In this document: piece by piece, positions 1 to 24,506 of the stretch | Numbering within the stretch: position 1 is the first letter of the stretch | How the letters are laid out: every line of letters starts with the position of its first letter | Assembly: GCA_030068145.1 (NCBI GenBank) | Contig: JAPJBO010000003.1 | Location: forward strand, 124,001-188,000 | Direction: 5' to 3' | Source of the DNA: Diplonema papillatum | Taxonomy: Eukaryota > Euglenozoa > Diplonemea > Diplonemida > Diplonemidae | DNA length: 64,000 nt | Notes under the pieces: model-generated | The model's database searches: none | Seen by the model: the letters and a program-made list of their open reading frames with translations, nothing else | What the model was told of the DNA's origin: nothing | Program-made: the position numbers and the translations under genes

Positions 1-579
1 CGAACCAGAACACGCTTTCCCTCACTACCCACTTGCTAAATGATCACTCTAATTGAGCGCTAATCTGGTCATGTAACAGGTGAACTACGGACACACAGTG
101 TTGGCCTTCTGTGTTTTTTTTGATGGAAAACGCCCACCCGCCAGCACAGCCCTGCCTTTCCCCCTCACGCGTTACTGCTTTCTTTTTCGTTTCTTGAACG
201 TTGCTCTTCTTTTTTCTGTACAAACCCCTCGTGTGCCTTCTACTGTACCGTTTACCCACGGTACCAATCACCACGATGCCAATTTCCCTGATTTCCGATC
301 ATAAAATTGGTCCTTTGCATTCTATCCGAGGGAGAGGGAGGGGATGCAAAATGCAGTTCAGACTGAAATAGAAGGAACACACACTTATCCGTTTCTTGAC
401 CTACGATGCCGTGTTATGAAAACTGTTGAGGGGCCCCTTCACAGGGGAAAACTCCCCTTGAAACCACGACTCAGAGGACCCTTGCCGTTGATACCTTAAA
501 GCCAGCACTAAGTGTCTGGTGCAACCAGGACTGGTTGACTTGTCTGGTTGGGTGGTACAGGCTGTCCAGGCTGGTCAGG
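1..579. other. No gene seen
   Basis: Short open frames on both strands have no recognisable domain or codon bias. The stretch ends where a 30-bp satellite begins. I see no RNA gene or clear repeat in it. Confidence 0.5.
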
Positions 580-830
580 GAATAAAATTCTTTTCCCGTG
601 GCTATAAGGGAATAAAATTCTTTTTTCGTGGCTATAAGGGAATAAAATTCTTTTTTCGTGGCTATAAGGGAATTAAAAAACATGGGGTGGCTGTAAGGGA
701 ATAAAAAGCATTGACGTGGCTATAAGGGAATAAAATTCTTTTTTCGTGGCTATAAGGGAATAAAATTCTTTTTTCGTGGCTATAAGGGAATAAAATTCTT
801 TTCCCGTGGCTATAAGGGAATAATAAGCAT
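580..830. repeat. 30-bp satellite (host of the nested insertions)
   Basis: About eight units of roughly 30 bp, of the form GGAATAAAATTCTTTTTTCG followed by TGGCTATAAG, repeat in tandem, with one shorter or diverged unit near 670-720. A matching piece, AATAAAATTCTTTTTTCGTG followed by actataa, reappears in the same orientation at 18,050-18,075. That is just beyond the far side of the nested cluster, which suggests that everything between was inserted into one array. Confidence 0.85.
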
Positions 831-832
831 TT

Positions 833-1050
833 ATTCGGCAAGATAATTTCCGTTTATTTTGCCGAGGTGTCGGTTTTAGTCCCGAGGGAGGCCCGAGTTT
901 TGCAACCCCGAGCCACGAGCGGAGCGAGTGGCGAGGGGTTGCAAACCCCCCCGAGGGCCTCCCGAGGGACTAAAACCGACACCGAGGCAAAATTGGCGGA
1001 AATTATTGCCGAATAAATGATTTTATTGGGAAAAATAAATTCCCGAGGAT
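833..1050 (-). repeat. Palindromic 3' end of a YR element, copy 1
   Basis: A long imperfect hairpin lies at about 860-993. Its arms carry GTGTCGGTTTTAGTCCC and the complement, around a G/C-rich centre with the sequence GCCACGAGCGGAGCGAG. The whole block reappears inverted at 17,564-17,815. It forms the outer end of the tyrosine-recombinase element whose broken gene lies at 7606-8271 and 16,365-16,540. The end next to 1050 runs directly into the PLE terminal repeat. Confidence 0.75.
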
Positions 1051-1051
1051 G

Positions 1052-1298
1052 GAAAGAAATGCGTAGTTTTGTTTTATTCTTTTACTTGTTAGTTGTCGAC
1101 AACTTGTTTTTGTGTTGAGGTGTCATTCAGATGTAAATCTAAAGCCGCCCACGTCAAATTTTGTTAAGCAGCGGCTGCCAAAACTTGCCGTGACACCTAT
1201 GATCAAAGTAAAGTGGAGAAGAGATGTGAAAACGGGTTTTTGCCTAGAGGCTTTTCGTGTGAGAATAGAAGGTTGTCTAAAAAAGAAAGGGGGGGGGG
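1052..1298 (-). repeat. 3' pseudo-LTR of the Penelope-like element
   Basis: The block from GAAAGAAATGCGTAG to a run of at least eight G residues is repeated almost exactly at 7026-7273. It contains the short palindrome GTTGTCGACAAC and an inverted pair GGTGTCA/TGACACC. I looked for a hammerhead ribozyme core, which many PLE terminal repeats carry, and found no CUGANGA...GAAA arrangement. Confidence 0.88.
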
Positions 1299-1358
1299 TA
1301 GTGAATATTTTTTGACCCTCGTAGCTCGCTGGGTCAGGCGCGCCAGGCAGGTGCTGGG

Positions 1359-4300
1359 CTAATTTCGGTCTGGGCTTGGACTTTGCAGTCCTCCCATATT
1401 CCTTTCGCAAGTCCTTTCGTGTACACCCACTCCAAACACGTTTGCGAACGGGTTGCCGGACCTTGTTGTTGTAACACCACAGTGGCGGCATTTAAGTAGT
1501 ACGTTCTGCTCTTGTGTTTGTGGGATGTTCGCGGGTGGACTGGCCTGCGAGTCTTGTGTTTGTGTTGGCGTCGACGGTCCTAGCGGGAGATCCGGTGTCG
1601 GCGTTCGCAGTTGCGCATTTGGCTGTTCCGGTGTTGCTGGACTAGCGGTTGGCTGTTCCGGTGATTCCGGTTGAGCGGGTGGCTGTGCTGCTGATTCCGG
1701 TTGTGCTTGCGGCTGCTGTTCTCGCGGGCGGACGGATTCCTCTGGGAGTGTCGAAGAGGCGGAAGAACTTTCCGGAGATTCTGCTCGAGGGTCGAGGAAC
1801 CTTTTTACCTGCATATTGGTGATCGTGCCTAACACTGGGATGTAGTGTACTTGGGCAATATAGCCGAGCAATATGAGAGGGCCTGTTTCGCCTACCGTTT
1901 GGGTGTGGAACTTATTCCTCTCATCGATTGTAAAAAGGCGGATTTGCACTTTTTTGAGTTGTGTGAAAGCTACGAGGGACAGGTAGTCACCCCAGCTGTA
2001 GTTCTCACGCAGCTTTTCGATGTATTGGGAAGTATCCAAATCAGGCAGGAAGGCTCGTAGGTCGTCTCTGTGTGCATCCCAGTAGTCTGCCAGTTCGTTG
2101 CGGAGGACCATTTGGTCTCCTTGTTCATAAGTCAAGCTCAAAAACAGGCAGTTTCCGTTACCGGCTACAGTTCGCGGCTGCAGTCCTATCTGTCTAAGTC
2201 TAGCTGTAAGCTTCAACTCGCGTTTGAGAAGTCTATCACGTGGGCCTTCTTGCTGGATGTTTGGGGGTCTGGCGGATGGGGAAAGAATTGGAGGTCTGGC
2301 GGATGGGGAAAGATTTGGAATGCAATTATCTCTCGAAAGCGAGGATACTACTTCACTTACTTTCTTTGTTCTTCTTCGGCCTACTCGTTTTTGTTCTTCA
2401 ATCAGCGGAAACCCCGCGTAGTATGAAACGATGCACTTTTGGAACCATTGTTTCAGAGACCGTTGCGACGCGCCGAGGTTAGGCAGACGTTCCTGCACTC
2501 CGTGGTGGAAGACTGTTTTCAGCTTCTGAATGCGGTGACCTCTATTCAGCAGCAGGTAGAGTACTAGCTGAATTTCCCTCAGTGCGTCGTGCCAGTTGTT
2601 GCACAGGTTGAGGCAGCGAATGAGCAAGTTTTTCAGTATGGCAGACCCCTGGTGGTCAGGGATTGTCGACCATTGGTGAACGAACCTTACTGGTTTGAAG
2701 TGCCAGTTCCTTGTTTTGTCATTGACTGAAAGTCTGACAAAGCTAAGGTGGTCGCTTGTGCTTTGCTCTAGCCGTATTCGAATACCTAGGTATTCCACGT
2801 CACCTTCTGCCAGGGTTGTTTCTTTGTATATCATTTTGTAAAGTGCCGCTGGGGGTGGTTCGACGAACCATGTAAGGAAGTCGTCCATATACCTTTTTGA
2901 GTCCCTGTGTGCTTTTGCCTTCGCCTCGTCTTCCTTCATGAGCTCGTCCACGTATCTGGACTCAACGTCATAGCAATATAAGTTTGCTAGATCGGGTGAC
3001 GCGTTGGCTCCAAGAGGAAGTCCAAATACCTGTCGCATGCAGATACCGCCCTGCTCTACGTAGCAGTTGTCAACGCATAAAGCTATGAGAGCCTCGATAT
3101 CTTGCTGGGTATAGGACTTTTCCTTTTTGGTGCCTCCAAAAAGTGTAAACTCGCTTGTCTTAGCGAACTCGAAGGCTTCTTTCACTGCATTTGCGACACC
3201 TTTTTTGAGGTCTTCTTGCGGAAGTTCGTTGAACATGGTTTTGAAGTCAAATGTTCGGGGAAGTTTTTTCCGAAGGTACCTATATCGTTGTTTGATTTCA
3301 GCAGCGACTTCATCGGCACTCTCGATAATCCAGTACCTGGATATCCCTTTTTCCGCTTTCAGAATGTCATCTTTAGCTTTCAGGAACTGCATCGTTAGTT
3401 TTAAGAGTTGTGAGAGTAGTGTATTTGCTTCTGTTGTCGCTGCTTTTGGTTTTCCTTTCGTAGGCTTCGTTTGGGGGGGCGGGGGTGCGGGAGGGGGCTC
3501 GTCGTCAAAGTCGAGGCCACTAGGTTCTTTCACACAGACAGGGGGGCTGCGAGAGGATACTCCTGCTATCCAGCGCATCCCTTTCTTTTCCTTGTGTAGT
3601 TTTGGGAGGCCGTAGAGGTAGGGTAGCTTACCTGTAGGGTTGAAACCCAGTGAGACGTTTATTGCTGCCAGAGTAGTGCGCAACTCGTCGGTGGCATGCA
3701 CTTCTGCATAACAGTTCGAACGAAGTTGGTTTTGCAGCATGCGGTGGTAGTGTTTTTTACACACAAATCCTACATCGTGCCTGCTCTTGTCAACTTTTGT
3801 CAGGATGAAGTGTGACTTTAACACTTTAAGAGAGTCGAGAACTTTCTTTGGAATGGTGTCTGGTGTGAGGTGTGGGTGTTGGGCGAACCTTGTTTTCATT
3901 TCTGAGACAATGGCGTCCGTTAGTTTCTCTTGTACCGAGTGAGAGCTTGCTTTAAAAGTGGACGTCACATATGCTGAAATGTCTTTTTCCATGTTCTCGA
4001 ACACATGGTCAATGTGGGAGGGTAGTCTGTATTTGAGGCCCATGTCGAAGAGGTGAAGCAGCTCTTCGTCCATTTTGATGTCGTGGGCCGTGCACATGAC
4101 ATGCCCTTCGTGAGTAACGTCGGCCGTGTTTTCTTTGAGGAATTGTGTACAAGGGCATGATTTTGTCAGGTCTTGGAAGTCTACTTGTTGTGTGTTGAGA
4201 CTTTCTTCAGTCACATTTAGCAGGAAGCTAGATGTGGGGGGACCCAATTTATTGCAAATACGCGTTTTGCTAAGAAGCTCGGGCGTAGGGCAAGCTTCAA

Positions 4301-5963
4301 CAACCTTCTGGCTGCGTAGGACTTGACCGAGCTGGATAGCATCTATCGTTTTATGCGAAAAGTTCAGTTTGAGCCATTTTATTGAAAAATCTTTTTTCCT
4401 TTGTAGTTTGTTTAGAGAGAAGGGCGTCAAACGTGAGATAAGTTTCCTTTCGAGTACTTCTACTTTCGATGTGAAGTACTCGCCAACCAGGAAGCGACGC
4501 ATGAACGATAAGACTCGTGTAACTCGGCGCAGCTGCCAGTTATCGAGATCGTATTCTGCTAACACTGCTTCATCCAGTTGAAAAAGGGCATTGAGGTGGC
4601 GTTTTATGCCTTTCCATCTGCCTTCCTCGATGAGGACGGGGGTAGTGCCTTGCAGTTCTCGAATCTGATCTGCGTTCTCACGGCGGTTGGCACGCTTCTG
4701 AGACGATGTGGCGGTCCTCTCTTTTTTAGGGGGGCGTTTTTTGTTTTTCCTGCTCCGTTTTCCTACAGCTGTTGAATACAGGCCTTTCTGGTTAAGAGGG
4801 GGGCTCAACTTGTTGATGTAGTGGTATTCGCGGGGGAGGGCTTGCCGGTGGAAAAGAAACTTGTTTCTTTTATTGGAGTTGGCTGACTCCGGGGTGAAAG
4901 CAACTTTTTCTAAGACAACTGCCAAGAGAGGTGATTGTCGTCGGATAAGGTGTTCTTCTATTTTGGTAGGTTGTTGTTGTCTCCGTTGTTTGCTGCGCGC
5001 GCTGGAAAAATGAGCCGATACCCTAGTGAACGCCTTCCCACTTGTTTGACCAACGTAGAGCAGGTTACCTGCTTCGTTGGAAAGGCCATAGATGACCCCT
5101 TTCTGCTCTAGGTCACCGGTGGCATGGGGAACATCCCACTTGTATTTCTCCTTGATCAACGTAAGAGCCTTGCTGCACGCGTTCAAGAAGACAGGCTTGT
5201 TGAACCGGCCGTTTTCGTGATACGATTTGATGTCGACGCGTTCGAAAGCTGCTTTGCTTCTGAGAACTTCGTACCTGTTGAAGGAAACAAGGAACGGGTC
5301 TGTTCTGACTTCGCGCCGGCCGTGGGGAACTCTGGTGGCTGTCGCACGAGCGGACTCTTGCCTCGTTTCTCTTCTCTTTGTATTCCGCGGTTTCTCCTTT
5401 GTCTGGGGAACTTCCTCTAGGATAAGGACTTGTGCCACCTTCAGAGGCGGCATTAAGCCTTGGCGGAGAGTGTTTTCCAATTTTCTGAATGGGACGAAAG
5501 CTCCGACCTTTTTGTTGTAGAGAACGGTAAGCTGGTCTCCTTGCCTTGTAGCGGCAGTAATCAGAAACCTTTTCGGTGAGAGCAAACCTGCTTGCGACAG
5601 AAGTTTGATTGTCAGGCCGGTCAAGTTCGTGGCTTGTTGTTTCTGGAAGTGAATGTCTTGCGCGCGGGATGGGTGGGCCGAGTCTGTACGGGGGTTGGTT
5701 CTGAAGACGCGTGTTTTGGGGAGGCTTTCAAAATGTAAGTTGGCTTCGAAGTCGACGTTGGTTGCTTTACCTTTTTTGCCCTTTTTTCCTTTGGAGGTTT
5801 TGCCAGAAGGTTTGCCTAGGTTGTTGCCCGTTTCATTCTGGAATGTCCTCTCTTTTGATCCTTTTTTCGAAAATGATTTCCCTTTTGTTCCTTTCTTGCC
5901 TGATGTTTTTGTTCCCTTGGTACCGGAGATACCGTATTTTCCTTCGTTAAATTTTTGCCACAT
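1359..5963 (-). CDS. Penelope-like ORF: GIY-YIG, reverse transcriptase, OTU protease, zinc knuckle
   Basis: The 1,534-residue protein begins with a Lys/Gly/Thr-rich tail (1-70). A GIY-YIG-type nuclease domain follows at about 288-393 (GVIYGLSN, LLYVGQT, KIEEHLIR, INKLSPPLNQKG). The reverse transcriptase of Penelope type spans about 715-1070: KVDK near 723, YGLPKLHK near 783, FDFKTMFNELP with Asp906, GLPLGANASPDLANLY near 981, and the catalytic YMDD at 1025-1028. At 1250-1385 an OTU-like cysteine protease is visible, with GNGNCLF (Cys about 1272) and a late His in QVHYIPV (about 1373). After a Pro/Gln-rich linker come Cys1492, Cys1495, His1515 and Cys1519, a C2HC zinc motif. Known PLEs pair RT with GIY-YIG; an N-terminal nuclease fits the Chlamys/Naiad-type arrangement, as far as I recall. 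The OTU domain is the unexpected part. The start is the first Met after an open leader and is not proven. Confidence 0.88.
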   Translation of the reverse strand: MWQKFNEGKYGISGTKGTKTSGKKGTKGKSFSKKGSKERTFQNETGNNLGKPSGKTSKGKKGKKGKATNVDFEANLHFESLPKTRVFRTNPRTDSAHPSRAQDIHFQKQQATNLTGLTIKLLSQAGLLSPKRFLITAATRQGDQLTVLYNKKVGAFVPFRKLENTLRQGLMPPLKVAQVLILEEVPQTKEKPRNTKRRETRQESARATATRVPHGRREVRTDPFLVSFNRYEVLRSKAAFERVDIKSYHENGRFNKPVFLNACSKALTLIKEKYKWDVPHATGDLEQKGVIYGLSNEAGNLLYVGQTSGKAFTRVSAHFSSARSKQRRQQQPTKIEEHLIRRQSPLLAVVLEKVAFTPESANSNKRNKFLFHRQALPREYHYINKLSPPLNQKGLYSTAVGKRSRKNKKRPPKKERTATSSQKRANRRENADQIRELQGTTPVLIEEGRWKGIKRHLNALFQLDEAVLAEYDLDNWQLRRVTRVLSFMRRFLVGEYFTSKVEVLERKLISRLTPFSLNKLQRKKDFSIKWLKLNFSHKTIDAIQLGQVLRSQKVVEACPTPELLSKTRICNKLGPPTSSFLLNVTEESLNTQQVDFQDLTKSCPCTQFLKENTADVTHEGHVMCTAHDIKMDEELLHLFDMGLKYRLPSHIDHVFENMEKDISAYVTSTFKASSHSVQEKLTDAIVSEMKTRFAQHPHLTPDTIPKKVLDSLKVLKSHFILTKVDKSRHDVGFVCKKHYHRMLQNQLRSNCYAEVHATDELRTTLAAINVSLGFNPTGKLPYLYGLPKLHKEKKGMRWIAGVSSRSPPVCVKEPSGLDFDDEPPPAPPPPQTKPTKGKPKAATTEANTLLSQLLKLTMQFLKAKDDILKAEKGISRYWIIESADEVAAEIKQRYRYLRKKLPRTFDFKTMFNELPQEDLKKGVANAVKEAFEFAKTSEFTLFGGTKKEKSYTQQDIEALIALCVDNCYVEQGGICMRQVFGLPLGANASPDLANLYCYDVESRYVDELMKEDEAKAKAHRDSKRYMDDFLTWFVEPPPAALYKMIYKETTLAEGDVEYLGIRIRLEQSTSDHLSFVRLSVNDKTRNWHFKPVRFVHQWSTIPDHQGSAILKNLLIRCLNLCNNWHDALREIQLVLYLLLNRGHRIQKLKTVFHHGVQERLPNLGASQRSLKQWFQKCIVSYYAGFPLIEEQKRVGRRRTKKVSEVVSSLSRDNCIPNLSPSARPPILSPSARPPNIQQEGPRDRLLKRELKLTARLRQIGLQPRTVAGNGNCLFLSLTYEQGDQMVLRNELADYWDAHRDDLRAFLPDLDTSQYIEKLRENYSWGDYLSLVAFTQLKKVQIRLFTIDERNKFHTQTVGETGPLILLGYIAQVHYIPVLGTITNMQVKRFLDPRAESPESSSASSTLPEESVRPREQQPQAQPESAAQPPAQPESPEQPTASPATPEQPNAQLRTPTPDLPLGPSTPTQTQDSQASPPANIPQTQEQNVLLKCRHCGVTTTRSGNPFANVFGVGVHERTCERNMGGLQSPSPDRN

Positions 5964-7025
5964 TTGGGAAGGGCTGTCCTCTGAAAAATTTGTAGTAGCA
6001 GGTTAAAAAGTTTGTGACTGAGGCCAAAGGGTGTTACGCCCTTGTTGCTCGGGAAACCCAGCCCGAGCACCCGTCAAACACCGATGAGTGTCCTTTATGC
6101 TTTAGGAGAGCGACCACTCATCACTAAGGGTAAAGACCCTTCTCTCCAACATTCAACGGCCGGTCGCCTAGGGAATTTAGGTGTCGTCGACCCCAGTTAT
6201 AACGCCGTAACTCCGTTGAACTGCTGTTTTAGTTGCCCATGGGGCTTTCGGCCAGGCCCTGGATACAGCTTCCCAGGTTTACGTTTTGCTACGTTTTATT
6301 GCTTCGACGTCTAGAGTGCGAGCGAATAGCGTTTTGTTTGCGCTGACGTCTAGCGACAGGCAATATAGTTGACATTTTACCATTTCTGAACGTAACGTAA
6401 CTTTCCTTTTTATGATAAGGGAGGAACAGGCAGGCAACCTAAGTGGCAGGTAAATTGGTTATTCGATGGTGATGGTTTGGGTTCTCATGTAAGCTTTTAA
6501 GCAGAATGAAAGTATCGACTTCGTAGCTTTCGGCGTAAGTAGAAGTTGGTATTGGGAATCCATTCTTTCTCAGAAGTCGCCGGCTTTGACCGTTCGTGCT
6601 CTTTCTCCTCCATGGCAACTAGCGGAGAGCTATTGAAAAGCTAGCTGCCTCTTGGACCATGGAGTTGGGGGGGCTAAGTGCAGGTAAAGCTGGGTTTTCC
6701 TGTTACAGACACTTTCCACGAGGTGTACTGGTGAGCATGTTCTGGAAGGTTGAATTCGTTCGCGCGTGGGGTTGGGAGGGAATTCCAGCTTTACTCTGAA
6801 ATATCAATTGGGTTGATGGAAAGGTCTTCTATCAAAGAAGTTTTTTCAGCGTGTTGTCAGTTTTCTCACATCCGCTAAAGAAGGGAATGCGAGGCACGTC
6901 GTCAGAACTTTCTGTTCCGCCACGTGGCTTTTGGGGACATATGATAGCAGTTCCGGAGAGGTGCATCAATGTTTAGCCAAATCCTCCACTGGTAGCTCTG
7001 ATGAGACCCATGTGGTAGATCGGTA
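5964..7025 (-). other. Leader region of the Penelope-like element
   Basis: This stretch lies between the 5' terminal repeat and the ORF and has no coding signal on either strand. A hairpin can form near 6,083-6,124 (GATGAGTG and CACTCATC arms). It probably corresponds to the 5' untranslated region, but no start site or promoter can be read. Confidence 0.5.
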
Positions 7026-7273
7026 GAAAGAAATGCGTAGTTTTGTTTTATTCTTTTACTTGTTAGTTGTCGACAACTTGTTTTTGTGTTGAGGTGTCAT
7101 TCAGATGTAAATCTAAAGCCGCCCACGTCAAATTTTGTTAAGCAGCGGCTGCCAAAACTTGCCGTGACACCTATGATCAAAGTAAAGTGGAGAAGAGATG
7201 TGAAAACGGGTTTTTGCCTAGAGGCTTTTCGTGTGAGAATAGAAGGTTGTCTAAAAAAGAAAGGGGGGGGGGA
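7026..7273 (-). repeat. 5' pseudo-LTR of the Penelope-like element
   Basis: Near-identical direct copy of 1052-1298. Its outer end (the G-run at 7262-7273) abuts AAAACCATACTGC, the continuation of the disrupted YR element. Confidence 0.88.
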
Positions 7274-7297
7274 AAACCATACTGCTTTGCAGTTATC

Positions 7298-7509
7298 ATG
7301 CAGGGTCAAAACCTTGTGTCTTTTTGAAAATGGCCAAAAAAAAAAAATTCCGGAAAAAAAATGGGGTTTTTGAATTTTAAAAGTTTGGAACAAACTCTGC
7401 AGCAATTTTTGAGGAAGTTGAGCAATTTTTTTTTTTCCAAAATTTTTTTTAGGGCTCCATCGGCCCCGCGGGAGCGTTTTAAAAAGACACAAGGTTTTGA
7501 CCCTGCATG
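7298..7509. mobile_element. Small TIR element (CATGCAGGG family), copy 1
   Basis: Inverted ends CATGCAGGGTCAAAACCTTG and its complement bound about 212 bp with an A/T-rich interior and an internal block like GCTCCCGCGGGGCC. It is flanked by a TTAT target duplication (7294-7297 and 7510-7513). The inverted paralogue near 17,545 has a single TTAT at the same place, so this is a true insertion. It has no coding capacity, so it must be mobilised in trans. Confidence 0.9.
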
Positions 7510-7605
7510 TTATGTTGGTGTCTAGCAGAAACGTTGCGTAGCAAATGTGCACGGCAGAACGTTGTGTAAGACGTTGAGCATATTGCTTTGCAGTTACGTT
7601 GGTGT

Positions 7606-8271
7606 TTAGCAGAACGTTGCGTAGCAAATGTGCGCGGCAGAACGTTGTGTGTCTGAGACATTGCGTAGCAGAACGTTGTGTAGGAGTGGAGTTGTTGTAA
7701 GTGACAGGTCACAGATCAATGTGCCTGGTTGTTCTGCTGCAACTGGGGGAGTCCCGGCAGGTTGACGTTGTAGTTCACAACATACGATGCTGCTTGCATG
7801 GGCGCTTGCATGAAGGACTGCACAGGTGCTGTCGTGCTGGGTAGGACTGTTGGATGAGCTGGAGTGGAACTCGGCCCTTGCATTGGTATACGCGGAGACG
7901 GTCGAGTAAAACGGCCCGTCACGAATGAGGAAGAAGTCGCGGACCACTTCACCCCTCTGCTTGCTGGGTGTAAACACCACCTTCAAGTATTTCTCTCTTG
8001 CTGGGGTTACACGTGGGATCACGTCTTCGGGAGAGATTGTCAGCACTTCATTTGCACGGAGGCTTCCACACCACTGGAGCGCCAGTGTCGCTTGTCTCAC
8101 CAGATGATACCACTTGTTGTCGTCTTCCTCCGGCTCACTCTCCATGAATGCAATGGCGTCTTCCTTGGACAGCCCAGGAGATTGCTTCGGCTTCTCGCCG
8201 CTGCGGAAGCTGCGCGCAAGATCGTACAACTCAGGGTACTCAACTGCAAGCTTCTGGCTATACTTTTGGTA
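7606..8271 (-). pseudogene. Crypton-like tyrosine recombinase, C-terminal fragment
   Basis: The minus frame resumes from the insertion at 8272 and reads through YYQKYSQKLAVEYPELYDLA, then a segment with SLRANEVLTISPEDV. The Arg there fits the first catalytic arginine of tyrosine recombinases. Further on the reading becomes Ser/Thr/His-rich and repetitive (NVLLRNVSDTQRS-type repeats). I see no HxxR box or tyrosine nucleophile, so the catalytic C-terminus is missing or frameshifted. The N-terminal half lies at 16,365-16,540, separated by an 8-kb nested insertion. The gene is therefore dead. Confidence 0.65.
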
Positions 8272-8678: not shown

Positions 8679-9818
8679 TCATTCGCTTTCCGTGTCTTGT
8701 TGGGCTATGGCTTCCATGCCTCTTTTATGGACTCTTGACCATTCAATGTACTCTTTAAAGGTTTGCGAGCTCCATCTCCCGGCCTTAAGGAGGATGCACA
8801 GCTCTGGGTTGCTGTCATTTATGTCCTGCGCGGCGCCCCTGCGGAAGCTATGTGTACCCCACCCTTGCACAGGCTGTTGGAACAGGGTGGCCTTCATTTT
8901 AACGGATTCAAGCATGTCTGGGTATGTCATGCTGAATATTTCCGCACCGGGTGCAACATTATCTCGGATGTGAGGCCACAGGTGATGAATGGGGCATAGC
9001 GCCCGCCATCCTTTCTTCCTCGCCTGCATGTTGCAAATGCAACCCCTAGATAAGGTGTCACCTTGTTGGTTGTTCTTTCTTGTTCTCAGAACAATGTAGA
9101 GTTCCTGTTGGAATTTAAAGACTGCGCTGTGTCTTTTCGTCTCTTTAACGTCCCGGAGTGCATTAACCGGCGAGTCAGTCTCAATTCCACGTCTCAGCGG
9201 GATCGCTTCGTCACCGGTGCGTAGCAAGTAGACGTACGATAGAACTGCCAATTGACGAAACTCGTTTAACGAACGGTTGGAGCCGGCAACAACAACAGGG
9301 GATGTATCGTCCACAATTTTATCGAGAAGCCGCGACGTGATCGCATCCATTTTACGTTTTCCGGTTTGCCTCCCTCTTATCCCTCGAATCACTTCCTTCA
9401 CCAAGGGATCTCTCAGCGGAGAATTGATCCCCAAGAACCGTTGGACTTTTTCGAGCGCTGATATTGTGCACTCTGCGGTATCCGCATTGGTGTGGATTGC
9501 TATGAACCCACGAATTTCTTCGGGGTCAATGGGGAAGTGGGGACATCGTTTGAGGTCCGCGTAGTGCGTCCAGGCCCTTACTGCGACGAAGTATTGGTGC
9601 CACGTCTCACCTTTGACCGAGGATGCCGTGAGCGATTGAACGGCTTGATCGATCGTCGCGCGAGCGGCCAGAGGTGGTAGCCCCTCGAGGTATTCCAACT
9701 TGCGCTTCCGACTCACAGTGAAGTCAGTTATCACCGACTCCTCGGTTGCATCGCGTTCCATCTCCGCTTTCAACATGGCGATGACCTCCGGTCCAGTCGG
9801 ATACTTGCGTCCAGACAT
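8679..9818 (-). CDS. Tyrosine recombinase of the DIRS-like element
   Basis: The chosen start (MSGRKYPTG) gives 379 residues; an upstream Met at 9980 would lie in the B1/A2 repeats and is less likely. An N-terminal SAM-like DNA-binding segment (about 45-150) is followed by the catalytic domain. Visible residues are Arg200 in YLLRTGDEAI, His323 and Arg326 in THSFRRGAAQD, and the likely nucleophile Tyr357 in FKEYIEW, so the R...HxxR...Y set is complete. It would cut and join the circular cDNA to the genome. The ORF lies between the A2 and B2 repeats and not before B1, so A2 may supply its promoter. Confidence 0.88.
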   Translation of the reverse strand: MSGRKYPTGPEVIAMLKAEMERDATEESVITDFTVSRKRKLEYLEGLPPLAARATIDQAVQSLTASSVKGETWHQYFVAVRAWTHYADLKRCPHFPIDPEEIRGFIAIHTNADTAECTISALEKVQRFLGINSPLRDPLVKEVIRGIRGRQTGKRKMDAITSRLLDKIVDDTSPVVVAGSNRSLNEFRQLAVLSYVYLLRTGDEAIPLRRGIETDSPVNALRDVKETKRHSAVFKFQQELYIVLRTRKNNQQGDTLSRGCICNMQARKKGWRALCPIHHLWPHIRDNVAPGAEIFSMTYPDMLESVKMKATLFQQPVQGWGTHSFRRGAAQDINDSNPELCILLKAGRWSSQTFKEYIEWSRVHKRGMEAIAQQDTESE

Positions 9819-9843
9819 TTTGTCAGTTGGGTGGGTGGGTGGG

Positions 9844-9965
9844 GGAAACTTTCTCTGTACGTGGTGTACGTGAGTTCTTCCGTCGAAGACGTTTCCTGAG
9901 CGGTCGTAGAGGTTGACTAATCGATAATAAAATACTTTCAGTTCTAAAGAACTGAAAGTTTTCTT
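9844..9965 (-). repeat. A2 internal repeat of the DIRS-like element
   Basis: A copy of the A1 end (16,192-16,312), with the shared block GGAAACTTTCTCTGTACGTG and the following 100 bp. It lies immediately next to B1, giving the B1-A2 junction expected of split direct repeats. Confidence 0.88.
9936..9961. repeat. 12-bp perfect hairpin at the A/B junction
   Basis: ACTTTCAGTTCT and AGAACTGAAAGT are separated by two A residues. The same hairpin closes A1 at about 16,286-16,311. Its place at the A-B boundary suggests a role in recombination of the circular intermediate or in transcript end formation; this is inference. Confidence 0.8.
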
Positions 9966-9966
9966 T

Positions 9967-10194
9967 ATTATCGTGGTCAACTCTACATACTTGGGGGCGT
10001 GATTGAGCCCCTCAGGCTCGAATCACTAAGCTGCGCATTGTAAGCGGTTCGTCCGTTCGAGAGTCTTCGGCTTGGGACTGCTCGTCTGCGATGGGAAAGA
10101 TCGGGCGATACACAGAGCCTTTCGTGTTAGATATGCATCTGGTACGCTCCGACAATGAGAAATCCAGGTAGCCGACAGAGATGTTTCCATTCCC
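9967..10194 (-). repeat. B1 internal repeat of the DIRS-like element
   Basis: Direct copy of B2 (8443-8668). The remaining 410 bp to the end of the RT ORF (10,195-10,605) hold no gene that I can support. Confidence 0.88.
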
Positions 10195-10605
10195 AACGCA
10201 GATCTCTGTCACTAGTTCCCATCGCAGAAGGAGAGATGCGTCGCAGGTTGTTCTCGAGGGCAATTTGTTGGTGTAAGGGAGATAGGGACCAACAACGTTG
10301 AATGTATTGTTCGTTGGAAGAAGGGTCACAAGAGCAAGCTGTAAACACCTGATTCAAGCGCAAGGATCGCATCCTTTGTTCAGCGTTTTAATTGAAGAAG
10401 CATCTTGTTAAGCTGGCCGAGTTTTCAAGCTCTAACTACGGCTGACTGTGAGAGGAGGAACGTGGAAAGGTACGTCATGCGTGGGCGTGGCTACGTTGTT
10501 CAGGTGCAGAAACGTTGGTGCGAAGATTGATCCGACTTGCATTTGGCCGGTGTCGGATACAGTGAGTTGGGAGATCGGAACACGGGACGATGGGTGAGAC
10601 TCAGC

Positions 10606-12723
10606 TTACACATCCCGCATTCTTCGGGTGAAGAGGACACTTTTGAAGTTTGGCACGTACTGGTACCCTCGTTCTTCGAGGTACCAAATGCGGCCCATTT
10701 GCCGGGAGGGAAGGTCGGCAATATTATGTGCTGATTCGACCCTCTCTAGCCACACCTCCATCGATCCTGAGGACACTGCCTCGAGCCAGAAGTTACGAAT
10801 CAAGGTATTAAATAACTGGTTCCGCGAGTATCCCTTTACGAGGGTCGCAAGAGAACAGACGTTATCAACGAAGAAATATTTCGGGATGTTTTTGAAGTCG
10901 TCTTCGAGGATAGAAACCGGAAAAAGGGTCTCGTGGAAGTCGTTCAAGTAACATTGAATCGAGACGACGACTTCTGTTTCGTACAGTTGGATGTTGTCGC
11001 GGTCGGCGGGATCGACGATATACTTATGGTGGTTCGTTCTGTCTACCGCAGAGAGTGCGTTTCCGTAAAATCGATGTTCTTTGTACGAAACGCAGAATCC
11101 GAGGGTGCCCAGCGTGGCGTCGGTGTAGATGATCATAGGCGTACGCGGTGACGATATGGCCTTGTAGTCGATGCGCCGATGAAATTGGGATCGAAGTATG
11201 GCTCCTTGCCACCACTCTAGGGCTGAACGTAGTCGTTCTCCCAGCTTTACCACGTTTACGGTCGAGTACTGCCTTGTTCGTATCGGGTGTATGTAGGCAC
11301 GTCCTACCGACCCGGTCATGCTCTGTTGAACAAAGCTGAGTTGACCAACAAGCTTTGCCGCTGCTTGTGGTGTCAGGCTGTCCTTCCGCAGGATCTCCTC
11401 GATGGTCGCCTTAAGTTTAGCCGACCTTTCGGTCGTGATAGCTAGGGAGGCCGATCCGGGAGACGAGACATCGATGCTCACGCCCAAATAGGATATGAGT
11501 TGCCCGATCCTCTTCTTCTTGTCACTGAAGATTAAACCGATGATGGTCGAGAAGAACTCTTGGAAGTCGAACGCCATCTGCTCGATGTCGTCGGCTCTTC
11601 CGAGTAGATGAAAGTCATCAAAATACCCGGATGCAGGAATACCCATGATTCTGCGCGCAGCTGCTGTTACAAACCGAGATAGGCAGTTGTAATCCAGAAC
11701 CGCCGACTCCGTCCCGAAGCAGAGCACGTTACTGAGGTACAGCTCAAGTTCGTGCGTTGCAGCATTGAGTGCGACGATCACTGCATACTTTCGTTGTGCT
11801 TTATCGGCGATCAACGATTTGTAAGCGTCCGACTGATCGAGGACGGCTTGTGCCTGCAGTACGACTCCGTTTTGAAACAAAGCAATAGCTGTCGCCACCA
11901 CGTTGTCAATGCCAAGAAGTGTTATTGGGGAGTGGATGCGGGTGACCTTATTCGTCGCTCGTCCGTTATCGCATCCACGGTGCTTCTCCCCTTGAACCAC
12001 GACGAACCTCCTGATCGGAATGAAGTGTTCCGTTGGGAGTGTCTCGACCGAGAAGGGACCCTCTAGCCATCCCTTTTCGACTTCTGCTTTCAACTGGGCA
12101 GAGATCTCGAGGAGATTCCCGTCACGTATGCTTTGTCGTCGGAGGGACTCCAGGAGGGGCTGCTGTTTGTTCTTCAGCTCTCTTTTCGTGGAGATGAACG
12201 ACTTTCGAGCGCTCCTGTTTTCAGGTTTCACGTCGAATACCCCTTCTTCGCACAAGTCATCGACAACTGGGAAACCAAACCCGAGTCTGTGAACGAATTC
12301 GTTCTTCACGCCCGGTTGTGCTGCTCCCATCAGCTCGAGAAGCTCCTCCACGACAGGTACGTTGATGCGAGACGCGATTGCTTTCGCAGGGTGATCCATA
12401 TCGAAGAACGAATTGAACCGCGCCGTGTCTTTCTTGCTACTCTTCGCTCTATCTTCCCAATATAGAAGACGGCTTGCTCGAAAGTTTTTGTTCTGTGCCG
12501 TCGAGTTCGTGGCGTAGATGAGCGTGCACTGGCGAAGGTCAGGATCGAGTTCTGCTGCGTCGAACGCTTGTGATTTGATTCGAGCTGTCAGCGCCACGTG
12601 GTCTTCCATTGATTTCGCCTGGAACGAGTAAAACACTCCCTTCTGTTTTTGATGGGGACGGTGCTCCTCGATGGATCGAAACGGCTGGGACTGTTCACGT
12701 TGATTCCCCGGTTCGCACCGCAA
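10606..12723 (-). CDS. Reverse transcriptase / RNase H of the DIRS-like element
   Basis: The 705-residue protein has RT motifs at about 225-415. Motif A contains DQSDAYKSL (Asp296/Asp299), motif B is LCFGTESAVLDYNCLSR, and the catalytic box is GYFDDFHLLGR (YFDD at 367-370). GQLISYLGVSID then follows, as in DIRS-type enzymes. An RNase H-like domain follows at about 525-680, with Asp535 in IIYTDATLGTLG, Glu582 in LYETEV, Asp620 in YFFVDN and Asp670 in HNIADLPSR. It lies 144 nt downstream of the gag-like ORF. No frameshift or stop interrupts it. It would copy the element RNA into cDNA. Confidence 0.88.
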   Translation of the reverse strand: MRCEPGNQREQSQPFRSIEEHRPHQKQKGVFYSFQAKSMEDHVALTARIKSQAFDAAELDPDLRQCTLIYATNSTAQNKNFRASRLLYWEDRAKSSKKDTARFNSFFDMDHPAKAIASRINVPVVEELLELMGAAQPGVKNEFVHRLGFGFPVVDDLCEEGVFDVKPENRSARKSFISTKRELKNKQQPLLESLRRQSIRDGNLLEISAQLKAEVEKGWLEGPFSVETLPTEHFIPIRRFVVVQGEKHRGCDNGRATNKVTRIHSPITLLGIDNVVATAIALFQNGVVLQAQAVLDQSDAYKSLIADKAQRKYAVIVALNAATHELELYLSNVLCFGTESAVLDYNCLSRFVTAAARRIMGIPASGYFDDFHLLGRADDIEQMAFDFQEFFSTIIGLIFSDKKKRIGQLISYLGVSIDVSSPGSASLAITTERSAKLKATIEEILRKDSLTPQAAAKLVGQLSFVQQSMTGSVGRAYIHPIRTRQYSTVNVVKLGERLRSALEWWQGAILRSQFHRRIDYKAISSPRTPMIIYTDATLGTLGFCVSYKEHRFYGNALSAVDRTNHHKYIVDPADRDNIQLYETEVVVSIQCYLNDFHETLFPVSILEDDFKNIPKYFFVDNVCSLATLVKGYSRNQLFNTLIRNFWLEAVSSGSMEVWLERVESAHNIADLPSRQMGRIWYLEERGYQYVPNFKSVLFTRRMRDV

Positions 12724-12867
12724 CCACAGCTTGTGAGTCAGATCTGCTGGTGGCGTCGACGAGGTGTAGAGAGCAGGATGAGATAGTATCGGGATGGTTG
12801 CGAAGGACGTTTGAGCAACTTCATGACGTTGGGGTGCTTGAGAATGGTGGACCGACAGCGGTGCTAG

Positions 12868-14133
12868 TCAGTTCTTCTGGCGCTTGCCCTTGAACCCGGG
12901 TTTGTTCGCCGTCGCACCTTTTCCGGAGGCCTTGCCGTAAGGTTCGTAGCGGTGCTGTTGTGGTGACGTCACGTTGCTGCTCCTTGTTTTAGCGGGTTTC
13001 GCTTGTTCGCGCTCGAGCTCAACTTTGTCTCTAAACCCTTTCAGCACCTCGCTGTCGATGTTCCCCATGAATGTTAGCGTATCCACGGTCGACACGTCTC
13101 GAGATAAGTCGGAAGCTTGCTTCAAAACGAAGTCCTCGTATCTGATCCCAGCTGCATAGGTGCCGCGCGAGGCTGTGTGGGATGCTGCCAGTGGCAGGAG
13201 TCCAACCACCATGACGATCAGACGCAATTGGTCCCTCTCCGGGACTGCATTGCATACTAGCAACGCAAGGGCATGACGAATCCGCATCAGCGTGTGAGTC
13301 GTGCCTGGCATGAAGTCTTTGTCGACTTTTGAGGACACATCGAGAAGGATTTTCTTGTGTGCTGTTTCTGCTGCTGCCTCCCCGAGATGGTCCTTGGCCT
13401 CTTGAAGGACCTCGTCGTTTAGGCGTGTGGTCATCGGAGAGAAGGCAATATTGTGTGCTTCGGCCCTGGTTGGGAAAAGCGGTGCTTTCTTCGGTGAGAA
13501 GTCAACAGGGATCTTGACCCCTGCCTCCATCTGGAGGAGTATCGCTCTGACTAGCGGGATATCGGGCTTCAATACCGTCGGAACATCATGCAGGTTTAAT
13601 TGACGCAGTCTTTGGTCAATGTTCACCATTCTGCGCGGTTCGCCCTTAATTTTTCCTGTTCCATCTTGTTTTGGTAGCCTCAGACCAAACGCGCGGATGA
13701 TCCCCGCGTTCGCGCAGCTCATCCCTCCCGCGATCAGGTCCGCGATTGGGATTGCGATTCCGGCCATCGTTTCCAGGTCAGGCATGCTCCATTTCTTCAG
13801 CGCTGCGTACAACTCCTTCACTTCCGTCACAGAAGGCGGGTCCATCCTTTCTTCTTTCACGGCACACAGTTCAAGGCTGATGATGGCAAGTGAGGCCCTT
13901 TTGACGGCGTCTGCGTCTGCTTCGGCCGATCTCACAAATTCATCATATAGATCGGCGGCATGCTGGTCGATTCCGGCTTCGACTGCGTCCGGCAAAGCCT
14001 TTTTAGCGGTGGCGGCGGCCCTCAGATCAGCCTTGTGCGCAATGATGAAGGAAACGCTGTCCATTCTTCTATTCTTTGAGAAAAGAATTCGAGCCTGGCG
14101 ATATGTCGATATTACTGGTATGGGAACTTCCAT
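12868..14133 (-). CDS. Gag-like ORF1 of the DIRS-like element
   Basis: 421 residues, rich in Ala, Lys and Asp, with no recognised domain and no zinc knuckle. The C-terminus is basic and Gly/Lys-rich (KASGKGATANKPGFKGKRQKN in part), typical of nucleic-acid-binding tails. Its position first in the element, before RT, and its composition argue for a structural Gag role. The start is the first Met on the minus strand after the satellite leader. Confidence 0.7.
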   Translation of the reverse strand: MEVPIPVISTYRQARILFSKNRRMDSVSFIIAHKADLRAAATAKKALPDAVEAGIDQHAADLYDEFVRSAEADADAVKRASLAIISLELCAVKEERMDPPSVTEVKELYAALKKWSMPDLETMAGIAIPIADLIAGGMSCANAGIIRAFGLRLPKQDGTGKIKGEPRRMVNIDQRLRQLNLHDVPTVLKPDIPLVRAILLQMEAGVKIPVDFSPKKAPLFPTRAEAHNIAFSPMTTRLNDEVLQEAKDHLGEAAAETAHKKILLDVSSKVDKDFMPGTTHTLMRIRHALALLVCNAVPERDQLRLIVMVVGLLPLAASHTASRGTYAAGIRYEDFVLKQASDLSRDVSTVDTLTFMGNIDSEVLKGFRDKVELEREQAKPAKTRSSNVTSPQQHRYEPYGKASGKGATANKPGFKGKRQKN

Positions 14134-14239: not shown

Positions 14240-16130
14240 GTTGCCAGCCCAGCGGCACTTACGGCGGTGTCCTGCCCCATTGGGACTTACGGAAGTCTGG
14301 TGCCTGCCCAACGGACTTAAGGCGGTGTCCGCCTGCCACGGCATTTTCCTGCTGCTTCGGGACTTACAGAATTGTTGTGCGTCCACGGACATACGGTGTT
14401 GTCCTGCGCTCTCGGGACCTTGCCTGCCCGACGGACTTACGGACGGTAGTCTGGTGCCTGCCCAACGGACATACGGCGGTGTCCTGCCCCATTGGGACTT
14501 ACGGAAATCTGGTGCCTGCCAACGAACTTCGGCGGTGTCCTGCCCCATTGGGACTTACGGAGGTCTGGTGCCTGCCCAACGGACTTACGGCGGTATCCTG
14601 CCCCATTGGGACTTACGGAAGTCTGGTGCCTGCCCAACGGACTTACGGCGGTATCCTGCCCCATCGGGACTTACGGAAGTCTGGTGCCTGCCCAACGGAC
14701 TTACGGCGGTATCCTGCCCCATCGGGACTTACGGAAGTCTGGTGCCTGCCCAACGGACTTACGGCGGTATCCTGCCCCATCGGGACTTACGGAAGTCTGG
14801 TGCCTGCCCAACGGACTTACGGCGGTATCCTGCCCCATCGGGACTTACGGAAGTCTGGTGCCTGCCCAACGGACTTACGGCGGTATCCTGCCCCATCGGG
14901 ACTTACGGAAGTCTGGTGCCTGCCCAACGGACTTACGGCGGTATCCTGCCCCATCGGGACTTACGGTCGTTTGTTGCCTGCCCAACGGACTTACGGCGGT
15001 ATCCTGCCCCATTGGGACTTACGGAAGTCTGGTGCCTGCCCAACGGACTTACGGCGGTATCCTGCCCCATCGGGACTTACGGAAGTCTGGTGCCTGCCCA
15101 ACGGACTTACGGCGGTATCCTGCCCCATCGGGACTTACGGAAGTTTGTTGCCTGCCCAACGGACTTACGGCGGTATCCTGCCCCATTGGGACTTACGGAA
15201 GTCTGGTGCCTGCCCAACGGACTTACGGCGGTATCCTGCCCCATCGGGACTTACGGAAGTCTGGTGCCTGCCCAACGGACTTACGGCGGTATCCTGCCCC
15301 ATCGGGACTTACGGAAGTCTGGTGCCTGCCCAACGGACTTACGGCGGTATCCTGCCCCATCGGGACTTACGGTCGTTTGTTGCCTGCCCAACGGACTTAC
15401 GGCGGTATCCTGCCCCATTGGGACTTACGGAAGTCTGGTGCCTGCCCAACGGACTTACGGCGGTATCCTGCCCCATCGGGACTTACGGAAGTCTGGTGCC
15501 TGCCCAACGGACTTACGGCGGTATCCTGCCCCATCGGGACTTACAGTCGTTTGTTGCCTGCCCAACGGACTTACGGCGGTATCCTGTCCCATTGGGACTT
15601 ACGGAAGTCTGGTGCCTGCCCAACGGACTTACGGCGACTTACGGTCGTTTGTTGCCTGCCCAACGGACTTACCATGCAGGGTCAAAACCTTGTGTCTTTT
15701 TGAAAACGGCAAAAAAAAAAAATCCGGAAAAAAATTGGGTTTTTTGAGTTTTAAAAGTTTGGAACAAACTCTGCAGTAATTTTTGAGGAAGTTGAGCAAA
15801 AAAATTTTTTTCCAAAAAATTTTTTAGGGCTCCATCGGCCCCGCAGGAGCGTTTTAAAAAGACACAAGGTTTTGACCCTGCATGTTACAGCGGTATCCTG
15901 CCCCATCGGGACTTACGGAAGTCTGGTGCCTGCCCAACGGACTTACGGCGGTATCCTGCCCCATTGGGACTTACGGTAGTTTGTTGCCTGCCCAACGGAC
16001 TTACGGCGGTATCCTGCCCCAATGGGACTTACGGAAGTCTGGTGCCTGCCCAACGGACTTACGGCGACTTACGGTCGTTTGTTGCCTGCCCAACGGACTT
16101 ACGGCGGTATCCTGCCCCATTGGGACCTGC
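14240..16130. repeat. 58-bp satellite in the DIRS-like leader
   Basis: About 30 units of 58 bp repeat between A1 and the gag-like ORF; each unit contains GGACTTACGGCGGTATCCTG and a second ACTTACGG half-unit. Several units differ only at CATTGGG/CATCGGG or AAGTCTGG/TCGTTTGTT. Because units lack stop codons in three frames, long overlapping open frames arise; I do not regard them as genes. A small TIR element interrupts the array at 15,673-15,884. Confidence 0.93.
15673..15884. mobile_element. CATGCAGGG-family element inside the 58-bp satellite
   Basis: Inserted into a satellite unit, with a TTAC duplication at 15,669-15,672 and 15,885-15,888. The neighbouring units show TTAC once at this site, so the target duplication is exactly 4 bp and the ends of the element are CATG...CATG. 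Confidence 0.93.
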
Positions 16131-17026: not shown

Positions 17027-17452
17027 ATGCCGTCGAAGCGCCAGCGCGAGGCAGATGACTTTCTGAAGAACGCCAAGGTGCCTGCAAAAAGTGCACCTGT
17101 GTACGAGGCGGAGTGGGAAGCGTTCGCAACGTTTGCCAAAATCAAAACGAGGCTCGTCAGTGGCTATCAAGAACTCGACCGCAACACTTGTCAGCAGCGC
17201 TCATCCAACAGTCCTACCCAGCACGACAGCACCTGTGCAGTCCTTCATGCAAGCGCCCATGCAAGCAGCATCGTATGTTGTGAACTACAACGTCAACCTG
17301 CCGGGACTCCCCCAGTTGCAGCAGAACAACCAGGCACATTGATCTGTGACCTGTCACTTACAACAACTCCACTCCTACACAACGTTCTGCTACGCAATGT
17401 CTCAGACACACAACGTTCTGCCGCGCACATTTGCTACGCAACGTTCTGCTAA
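17027..17452 (+). pseudogene. Internally deleted copy of the YR element gene
   Basis: Begins MPSKRQREADDFLKNAKVPA and continues to FATFAKIKTR, matching the N-terminal fragment at 16,365-16,540. It then jumps directly to the Ser/Thr-rich tail (SSNSPTQHDSTCAVLHAS) that ends the fragment at 7606-8271. The whole catalytic core is missing. This is the expected form of a non-autonomous derivative. It matters because it preserves empty target sites for the PLE and for a small TIR element. Confidence 0.7.
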
Positions 17453-17563
17453 ACACCAACGTAACTGCAATGCAATATGCTCAACGTCTTACACAACGTT
17501 CTGCCGTGCACATTTGCTACGCAACGTTCTGCTAGACACCAACATAACTGCAAAGCAGTATGG

Positions 17564-17815
17564 TTTTCTTTCCATCCTCGGGAATTTATTTTTCCCAATA
17601 AAATCATTTATTCGGCAATAATTTCCGCCAATTTTGCCTCGGTGTCGGTTTTAGTCCCTCGGGAGGCCCTCGGGGGGGTTTGCAACCCCTCGCCACTCGC
17701 TCTGCTCGTGGCTCGGGGTTGCAAACCCCCCCTCGGGCCTCCCTCGGGACTAAAACCGACACCTCGACAAAATAAACGGAAATTATCTTGCCGAATAAAT
17801 GCTTATTATTTCGCC
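17564..17815 (+). repeat. Palindromic 3' end of a YR element, copy 2
   Basis: Inverted copy of 833-1050, with the same long hairpin around a GC-rich centre. Similarity to the left copy ends at GCTTATTATT, which marks the probable element terminus. Confidence 0.75.
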
Positions 17816-19975: not shown

Positions 19976-20013
19976 CATCGGACCTTGACTCCGCCGACCT
20001 TGACTCCGCCTAT

Positions 20014-20225
20014 CATGCAGGGTCAAAACCTTGTGTCTTTTTGAAAATGGCAAAAAAAAAATTTCCAGAAAAAAAATGGGGTTTTTGAATTTTAAAAGTT
20101 TGGAACAAACTCTGCAGCAATTTTTGAGGAAGTTGAGCAAAATTTTTTTTTTCCAAAATTTTTTTTTGGGGTCCATCGGCCCCGCGGGAGCGTTTTAAAA
20201 AGACACAAGGTTCTGACCCTGCATG
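20014..20225. mobile_element. CATGCAGGG-family element with CTAT duplication
   Basis: Complete copy flanked by CTAT at 20,010-20,013 and 20,226-20,229. The interior has the usual GC block and poly-A/T stretches. Confidence 0.9.
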
Positions 20226-20229
20226 CTAT

Positions 20230-20608
20230 CTTGACTACTCCGCGGGGTAAAGATCGCTAAAATCTTGGGCAAACTTTTGAATCTCTATCCCGCAGAGTAA
20301 AGGTCTGAAAAACTTGGTTCGAAAAAGGGAAGAGATTTGGGTTCAAAGTTTTGGTTCTAAATTTTTTCAGGAAAAAATTCAAGAAAATTTCTAAGAAAAT
20401 TTTTCAAAAAAATTTCTGATAAATTTTCTGAAATTTTTGAAAAAAAATCTCGGAAAATTCCCGAGTTTTTTGCACTGGGGCATGCCAAAATTCTCTATTT
20501 GGTAAAAAAAACGCGGCAGCCTTTCAGGAGACAGTTTCTGAAGTCAGTCACTTGTTCAGTTCATTCTTTTTCATTTCCTGTTCTACAGTTCAATCCTTTC
20601 CATTCATT
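20230..20608. other. A/T-rich spacer
   Basis: Low-complexity AAATTTTTC and AAAATTT repeats between the small TIR element and the 3' end of the second YR gene. No gene is visible. Confidence 0.5.
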
Positions 20609-24060: not shown

Positions 24061-24075
24061 ACGACCGGGTGATAA

Positions 24076-24287
24076 CATGCAGGGTCAAAACTGTGTGTCT
24101 TTTTAAAACGCTCCCGCGGGGCCGATGGAGCCCTGAAAAAAGATTTGGAAAAAAAAAAAATTGCTCAACTTCCTCAAAAATTACTGCAGAGTTTGTTCCA
24201 AACTTTTAAAATTCAAAAAACCCAATTTTTTTCCGGAATTTTTTTTTTTGCCCTTTTCAAAAAGACACAAGGTTTTGACCCTGCATG
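24076..24287. mobile_element. CATGCAGGG-family element with ATAA duplication
   Basis: Complete copy between ATAA at 24,072-24,075 and 24,288-24,291. The left end has a small change, AAAACTGTGTGTC in place of AAAACCTTGTGTC. Confidence 0.9.
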
Positions 24288-24506
24288 ATAAACCGAGTTT
24301 TTGTGTCATCGTTCATGTTGCCCTGGACTGGTATGAAATGCCATTGGGCAATGTGGCCAAGCAATTGGCGGTTAGAGCCGTTTCCTACTTCGCTGTACTT
24401 GTAATCACCCGCTTCCGTGATCTGGAAGATACAGAGTTGGGTGTCTCGCAGGCGGGAGAAGCCTCCAAGGGCGAAGTGGTCTCCCCACGCACCGTTCCGT
24501 AAACCT

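Follow-up and report, generated by a model that had tools for sequence, protein, structure and literature searches.

An OTU domain in a Penelope-like retroelement of Diplonema papillatum and the USP domain of its sister families

The element and its copies

The window studied here is a stretch of 64,000 nucleotides from Diplonema papillatum (contig JAPJBO010000003.1, positions 124,001 to 188,000 of the forward strand). Its interval 1052..7272 is a mobile element. The features of the locus, counted from the first letter of the window, are the following:

1052..7272, minus strand: whole Penelope-like element (PLE) as inserted, both pseudo-LTRs included (247-bp end repeats, copy alignment, element-free site)
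7026..7272, minus strand: 5' pseudo-LTR (247 bp, 100% identical to 1052-1298)
1359..5963, minus strand: single ORF of 1534 aa with GIY-YIG, CxC-RT, OTU and C2HC (stop-free translation, Pfam, motifs)
4782..5102, minus strand: N-terminal GIY-YIG endonuclease (Pfam PF01541, 5.1e-5; GVIYGL at aa 289, YVGQT at 303, REYHYI at 378, LNQKG at 390)
2403..4157, minus strand: Penelope-like reverse transcriptase (RT), preceded by the CxC motif (CPC, aa 603-605) (motifs, 10-row alignment)
1764..2261, minus strand: OTU domain, modelled stretch aa 1235-1400, with Cys1272 and His1373 (Pfam, fold model, OTUD5 alignment)
1407..1490, minus strand: C-terminal C2HC finger, CX2CX19HX3C, at aa 1492 (like pattern in other PLE families)
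1052..1298, minus strand: 3' pseudo-LTR and 3' terminus (direct repeat, copies compared)
17199..17810, no strand assigned: paralogous site without the PLE and without the adjoining 220-bp repeat (flank matches)

The first-pass annotation had read the ORF as an N-terminal GIY-YIG nuclease followed by a Penelope-type RT with YMDD, an OTU-like region and a C2HC knuckle. The nuclease is borne out by a Pfam match at aa 288-336, N-terminal to the RT motifs (23.9 bits against a cut-off of 22.6), and the knuckle by its pattern, which is separated from the OTU domain by a proline-rich variable tail. Concerning the RT, the motifs are in place (CPC at aa 603, YGLPKLHK at 784, TFDF at 904, FGLPLGANAS at 980 and YMDD at 1025). 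RVT_1 is weak in 7 of the 10 rows (best 0.013) and was not found in the window RT, PDB profile searches with the RT gave no polymerase match, and the AlphaFold model (969 aa, 4-row alignment) had a pLDDT of 38 and was not used. Judging from its motifs, the RT would belong to the PLE clade. Both Cys of the CxC motif between nuclease and RT are invariant in all ten aligned rows. In PLEs with an N-terminal endonuclease (EN+; Naiad/Chlamys-like), such a CxC motif separates nuclease and RT, and the fingers domain has an insertion. The window element is best explained as a Penelope-like retroelement of this N-terminal GIY-YIG, CxC kind (Naiad/Chlamys-like).

Other copies align to the window element from about 1052 to 7198 and diverge outside this interval, with a 5' reach that varies among copies. 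Their 3' ends, visible in 13 of 15 loci, have an ending like ...ACTACGCATTTCTT in common with divergence beyond, the similarity lasting until about CGCATTTCTT and the flanks being different after it. Exact direct repeats of 247 bp lie at 1052-1298 and 7026-7272, and in 9 of the 15 loci compared, one of them the window copy, the first repeat ends with CGCATTTC and the full unit follows at once with TTTCTACCG, which makes a head-to-tail junction. Repeats arising in PLEs from such tandems are termed pseudo-LTRs in passages of PMC11167929, and the 5' pseudo-LTR at 7026..7272 is interpreted as the tail, truncated on its 5' side, of a tandem copy lying upstream. Pseudo-LTRs, head-to-tail tandem junctions and 5' truncation are all present in the PLE family of the window. 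At the element-free site, 17199-17810, two halves that match 819-1059 (96.7%) and 7504-7859 (99.2%) stand side by side; the flanks join at GGTTTTCTTTCCATCC, with the junction GGTTTTC/TTTCCATCC. Window positions 500-8000 have five Rfam matches with an E-value of 1 or less, none of which is a hammerhead ribozyme; N-terminal EN+ PLEs (Naiad/Chlamys-like) are not known to have a canonical one.

The assembly searched has 2910 contigs that total 271 Mb; neither RuBisCO nor LHC had a match in it, and a search for the telomerase RBD matched nothing, its controls included. When the PLE protein was used as query, the best 30 of 4978 candidates were scored, the window's own locus among them. The matches listed include five further loci that are 100% identical to the protein along its whole length or a part of it (L010, L011, L012, L015, L025), together with a subfamily of about 87% identity, one of 78% and one of 49%. 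The genome contains 310 matches to the DNA pattern for YGxxKLHK versus one for the reversed control, so that several hundred RT copies, intact or not, are likely. In one copy (L025), the match is interrupted by about 1.1 kb of other DNA near window position 4383. IMG/VR and GTDB contigs gave no relatives.

Several other repeats and ORFs are found in the window. Diverged repeats, for the most part at intervals of 30 bp, form an array next to the 3' end of the PLE (547-856). A MITE-like near-palindrome of about 220 bp (about 7293-7513) is repeated elsewhere, e.g. at 20011-20233, 24072-24291 and 15669-15887; its below-threshold Rfam miRNA matches probably reflect only its hairpin. Three consecutive ORFs on the minus strand at 8679-14133 are perhaps a DIRS/Ngaro-type element: the one of 433 aa ends with HSFRRGAAQDIN... 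and is tyrosine recombinase-like by eye, the one of 705 aa has a weak RVT_1 match (0.029) and the one of 421 aa has no match. On the plus strand, an ORF running past the window edge (61433-64000) has a DOMON-like domain (below cut-off) and cytochrome b561 and cytochrome b5 domains.

The OTU domain

The proposed fusion of a PLE ORF to an OTU domain holds: Pfam recognizes OTU at aa 1268-1358 (4.1e-8, 34.2 bits against a cut-off of 23.3), and the predicted structure is a confident OTU fold. The test set beforehand asked for a significant OTU match that retains Cys1272 and the His; the match is significant, both residues are present and they align with those of OTUD5. The segment is also present in relatives, which removes the case in which it would have been absent from all of them: the four OTU representatives all have a match that exceeds the cut-off (window 4.1e-8, L016 1.5e-8, L017 1e-8, L039 1.6e-5). 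Cys and His are kept in 19 of the 20 loci L009-L028, the window copy included, and also in L035, L036 and L039, which belong to the 49%-identical family (the names L039 and L035 denote a single locus). They were not found in L027, where the match stops at residue 1206, nor in the broken fragment L066.

The third catalytic residue of OTU proteases is an Asp three positions before the Cys, or an Asp/Asn two positions after the His. At these positions, all 19 window-family loci with the domain carry Asn (before the Cys) and Ile (after the His); the 49% family retains Asp at the first, but shares the Ile at the second. Since both usual acidic positions are altered in the window family, the catalysis of its OTU could be weak or lost.

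OTU domains are also found in high-copy LINE-like ORFs of the same genome (L003-L008, L029-L034; open frames of 1876-2130 aa). Exo_endo_phos was recognized in two (L005 and L029) of the three LINE-like ORFs scanned, and these resemble the PLE in having an OTU fused in a repeated ORF, but differ from it in that the OTU is N-terminal to Exo_endo_phos. In L031, a second OTU-like stretch (EEDGNCQF ... HGDH) is seen by eye downstream in frame, whereas Pfam gives one. In a tree of 10 OTU rows, two of them other OTUs, the PLE sequences (99/99) and four LINE-like sequences (94/99) form separate groups, and the nearest PDB chain is OTUD3 for the PLE OTU and OTU1 for the LINE-like L005. A borrowing of the PLE OTU from the LINE-like ORFs is thus not favoured, and both lines of evidence make it likely that the two kinds of OTU derive from two captures.

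The USP domain of the sister families

Other PLEs of the genome were sought through their nuclease. The GIY-YIG search gave 127 matches among the best 150 of 225 candidates, with ORFs in several size classes, and 12 PLE loci were fetched (five representatives, then L045, then six picked by motif variants). A USP/UCH domain above the Pfam cut-off lies C-terminal to the RT in 8 of these 12 loci: L040 (7.3e-14), L041 (3.8e-18), L042 (3e-15), L043 (5.7e-23), L044 (4.2e-18), L045 (1.5e-20), L062 (1.9e-9) and L063 (9e-12). L064 has a truncated USP stretch below the cut-off (0.0021), and L061, L065 and L066, short open pieces around the RT motif only, were left out of the C-terminal count. GIY-YIG itself passes its cut-off in the window, L016, L017 and L039-L044, but its match falls short of this value in L045, L062, L063 and L064.

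A PDB profile of six PLE USPs had USP36 as its best match (3e-24, positions 2-275 of 293). All six aligned sequences have the Cys (N-x-C-F) and the His (GH[YF]), with Asp at the third position in five of them and Asn in the sixth; from the length of the USP36 match and these residues, the PLE USPs look whole. Their single origin is neither shown nor rejected: with 14 host USPs, the tree in which they are held together had AU p-values of 0.418, 0.416 and 0.403, and the free tree splits them only weakly. One USP fetched as a host gene (L058, G000 C9:546011-546870) groups with the PLE USPs of L043 and L045 (100/100); it is therefore probably a PLE fragment, and it was counted among the PLE USPs in the single-origin trees.

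These sequences bear on the possibility that the window-family OTU is a pseudoenzyme that binds ubiquitin, which would tether or shield without cleavage. The Asn and Ile at the two acidic positions would fit such a protein, but its Cys and His are invariant in the window family, the related family retains the Asp, the sister USPs keep Cys, His and Asp/Asn, and some OTU-like proteases function with a Cys-His dyad. On balance, we regard a pseudoenzyme as unlikely.

One position for two folds

Among 16 PLE loci, 13 have a readable C-terminal part, of which four have an OTU, eight a USP, one a partial USP and none neither; these representatives were chosen by hand from the best-scoring matches listed and are no random sample. 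The proteins of the window element and L039, from OTU families, end in a finger whose spacing and residues are similar (G..F.....GL/GV..HE..C or a close variant), and a like finger stands behind the USP in L040, L043, L045, L062 and L063; none was found in L041, L042, L044 and L064. Because a like finger follows both OTU and USP, RT, deubiquitinase and finger appear, at the level of sequence, to be one plan with two unrelated enzymes.

A wider look at co-occurrence used 37 of the 127 GIY-YIG matches, picked by hand, and 23 OTU and 54 USP places among the matches listed. An OTU lies 2.8-4.1 kb downstream on the same strand of eight of the GIY-YIG places and a USP of 14; as the 37 were picked by family, this fraction is no estimate. 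Neither was listed for the remaining 15, a number that does not amount to absence, since two of these places (C524, C679), once fetched, carry OTU and USP. Ulp1 (C48), a SUMO protease carried by other mobile elements, has five genomic matches, of which two resemble each other, versus at least 150 and at least 149 scored for OTU and UCH, and none in the 13 PLE representatives scanned by Pfam.

In the RT tree, which is unrooted, a branch supported at 100/100 sets the four OTU families apart, and the USP families form three deep groups. The simplest reading of its midpoint drawing is that the USP came first and was then replaced by the OTU, although with an unrooted tree this is a reading and not a result.

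Selection on the module

The deubiquitinase module is under purifying selection. Among the window family and the 87% and 78% subfamilies, the three pairwise dN/dS values are 0.059, 0.094 and 0.068 for the OTU, 0.067, 0.038 and 0.042 for the CxC-RT, and 0.53, 0.24 and 0.28 for the tail. All of these are rough, because dS is near saturation (1.2-2.3 in the OTU), but the OTU clearly differs from the tail. Against the 49% family, dS is mostly beyond measure and the single OTU value is 0.23. At the protein level, the OTU evolves faster than the RT (85, 69 and 41% identity to the window versus 93, 87 and 59%). The same holds for the USP, whose dN is 0.17-0.31 versus 0.07-0.17 for the RT; its dN/dS values are 0.134, 0.113 and 0.162, versus 0.082, 0.067 and 0.086 for the RT and 0.53, 0.25 and 0.68 for the spacers.

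Proposed function of the deubiquitinase module

The PLE protein presumably nicks DNA by its GIY-YIG nuclease and then copies its RNA from the nick. It seems fairly probable that the module is an active ubiquitin-cleaving domain that serves the element, the strongest evidence for a ubiquitin-directed role being the USP in the same slot of sister PLEs. We infer its catalytic activity, its substrate and the step that it would help. The module, which sits between RT and C2HC finger on one chain, most likely deubiquitinates the protein of the element itself, or else factors located at the target site. If it meets its nearest targets first, it would deubiquitinate its own chain and complex, and the RT-nuclease complex would thereby be spared degradation until target-primed reverse transcription, which is to say that the RT would be protected from host turnover.

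Several other scenarios may explain the presence of the module. It could be directed at chromatin or repair factors of the insertion site, such as ubiquitinated histones or PCNA, and not at the element protein. The best PDB match of the USP profile, USP36, is a nucleolar enzyme. Passages of the Ginger paper also propose that transposon domains of such a kind act on repair factors (PMC2836005), but no sequence feature noticed in the PLEs points to a chromatin target, and we consider this scenario improbable. If the module is active, protection of the element protein seems more likely than a chromatin target. Still less probable is that the OTU is a polyprotein-processing protease which separates the RT from the finger, as viral OTU-like proteases can. 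It does lie between the two in a single long ORF, adjoined by the proline-rich variable tail; yet this tail is among the least conserved parts, and in sister families the slot holds a USP, a kind of enzyme that is ubiquitin-specific and not known as a polyprotein processor. Finally, it is very hard to believe that the OTU is a host exon taken up by chance which hitch-hikes neutrally, without a role: retroelements do capture host sequence, and passages of PMC6431247 describe transduction by PLEs, but dN/dS is well below 1 across three subfamilies, the OTU is also present in a family 49% identical over the ORF, and a second type of deubiquitinase occupies the same slot in sister families. Ubiquitin cleavage is the common property of both folds, which makes self-processing or chance capture less likely.

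Beyond an active module that serves the element, a more tentative proposal is that ubiquitin removal is a needed step in the life cycle of this PLE clade in this host, in which case the slot would have been kept while its occupant was swapped between OTU and USP without loss of the element. The carriage of unrelated OTU and USP domains in one place suggests that ubiquitin removal helps these elements to spread.

Relation to known systems

N-terminal GIY-YIG Penelope-like elements of the Naiad/Chlamys type were reportedly described by Craig et al. in 2021. The elements studied here resemble them in the N-terminal GIY-YIG, the CxC linker, the YGxPKLHK of the RT, pseudo-LTRs, tandem junctions, 5' truncation and the lack of a hammerhead match, but the window and sister PLEs add a C-terminal OTU or USP and a C2HC finger. 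The Naiad/Chlamys clade is not known to have an OTU or USP module, and no PLE with either domain appeared among the papers listed in literature searches, in line with the earlier statement that no described PLE with an OTU was known. Chlamys-group PLEs of Ectocarpus are new to TSAR (PMC12477816), in a text that contains neither the word OTU nor the word ubiquitin, and the passages of PMC3482391 mention PLEs once, for their nuclease.

Proteases of this sort are carried by other mobile elements. According to passages of Bao et al. 2010 (PMC2836005), related Ginger1 DNA transposons have a C-terminal OTU or Ulp1, one or the other; the authors propose that ubiquitin plays a part in transposition, and they also point to a protist in which a C19 domain accompanies a transposase. 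Ginger1 elements are, on the same passages, DDE cut-and-paste transposons that alternate OTU and Ulp1, whereas the PLEs are retroelements that alternate OTU and USP. Helentrons carry an OTU-like cysteine protease whose residues are said to be kept (passages of PMC4067079; OTU is also named in those of PMC6431247), but they are rolling-circle DNA elements with the OTU as an extra ORF, unlike its fusion in the single ORF of the PLE. In passages of PMC4640811, NeSL/Utopia LINEs carry a Ulp1-like protease; like the PLEs, they are retroelements with a cysteine protease for ubiquitin or ubiquitin-like proteins, but they are non-LTR elements and their Ulp1 is N-terminal and not a deubiquitinase.

The presence of two unrelated deubiquitinase folds at the same position of related retroelements is a natural experiment that points to ubiquitin as their shared substrate. 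Few eukaryotic retroelements are understood less well than PLEs, and their control by host protein turnover is little known. If the proposal of a needed step with a swapped occupant is true, these PLEs would be, as far as we know, the first retroelement group with interchangeable deubiquitinases, and single Cys mutants offer a direct test of the ubiquitin idea. The parallel between OTU/USP in these PLEs and OTU/Ulp1 in Ginger1 suggests that ubiquitin handling may be a recurrent need of mobile elements across mechanisms.
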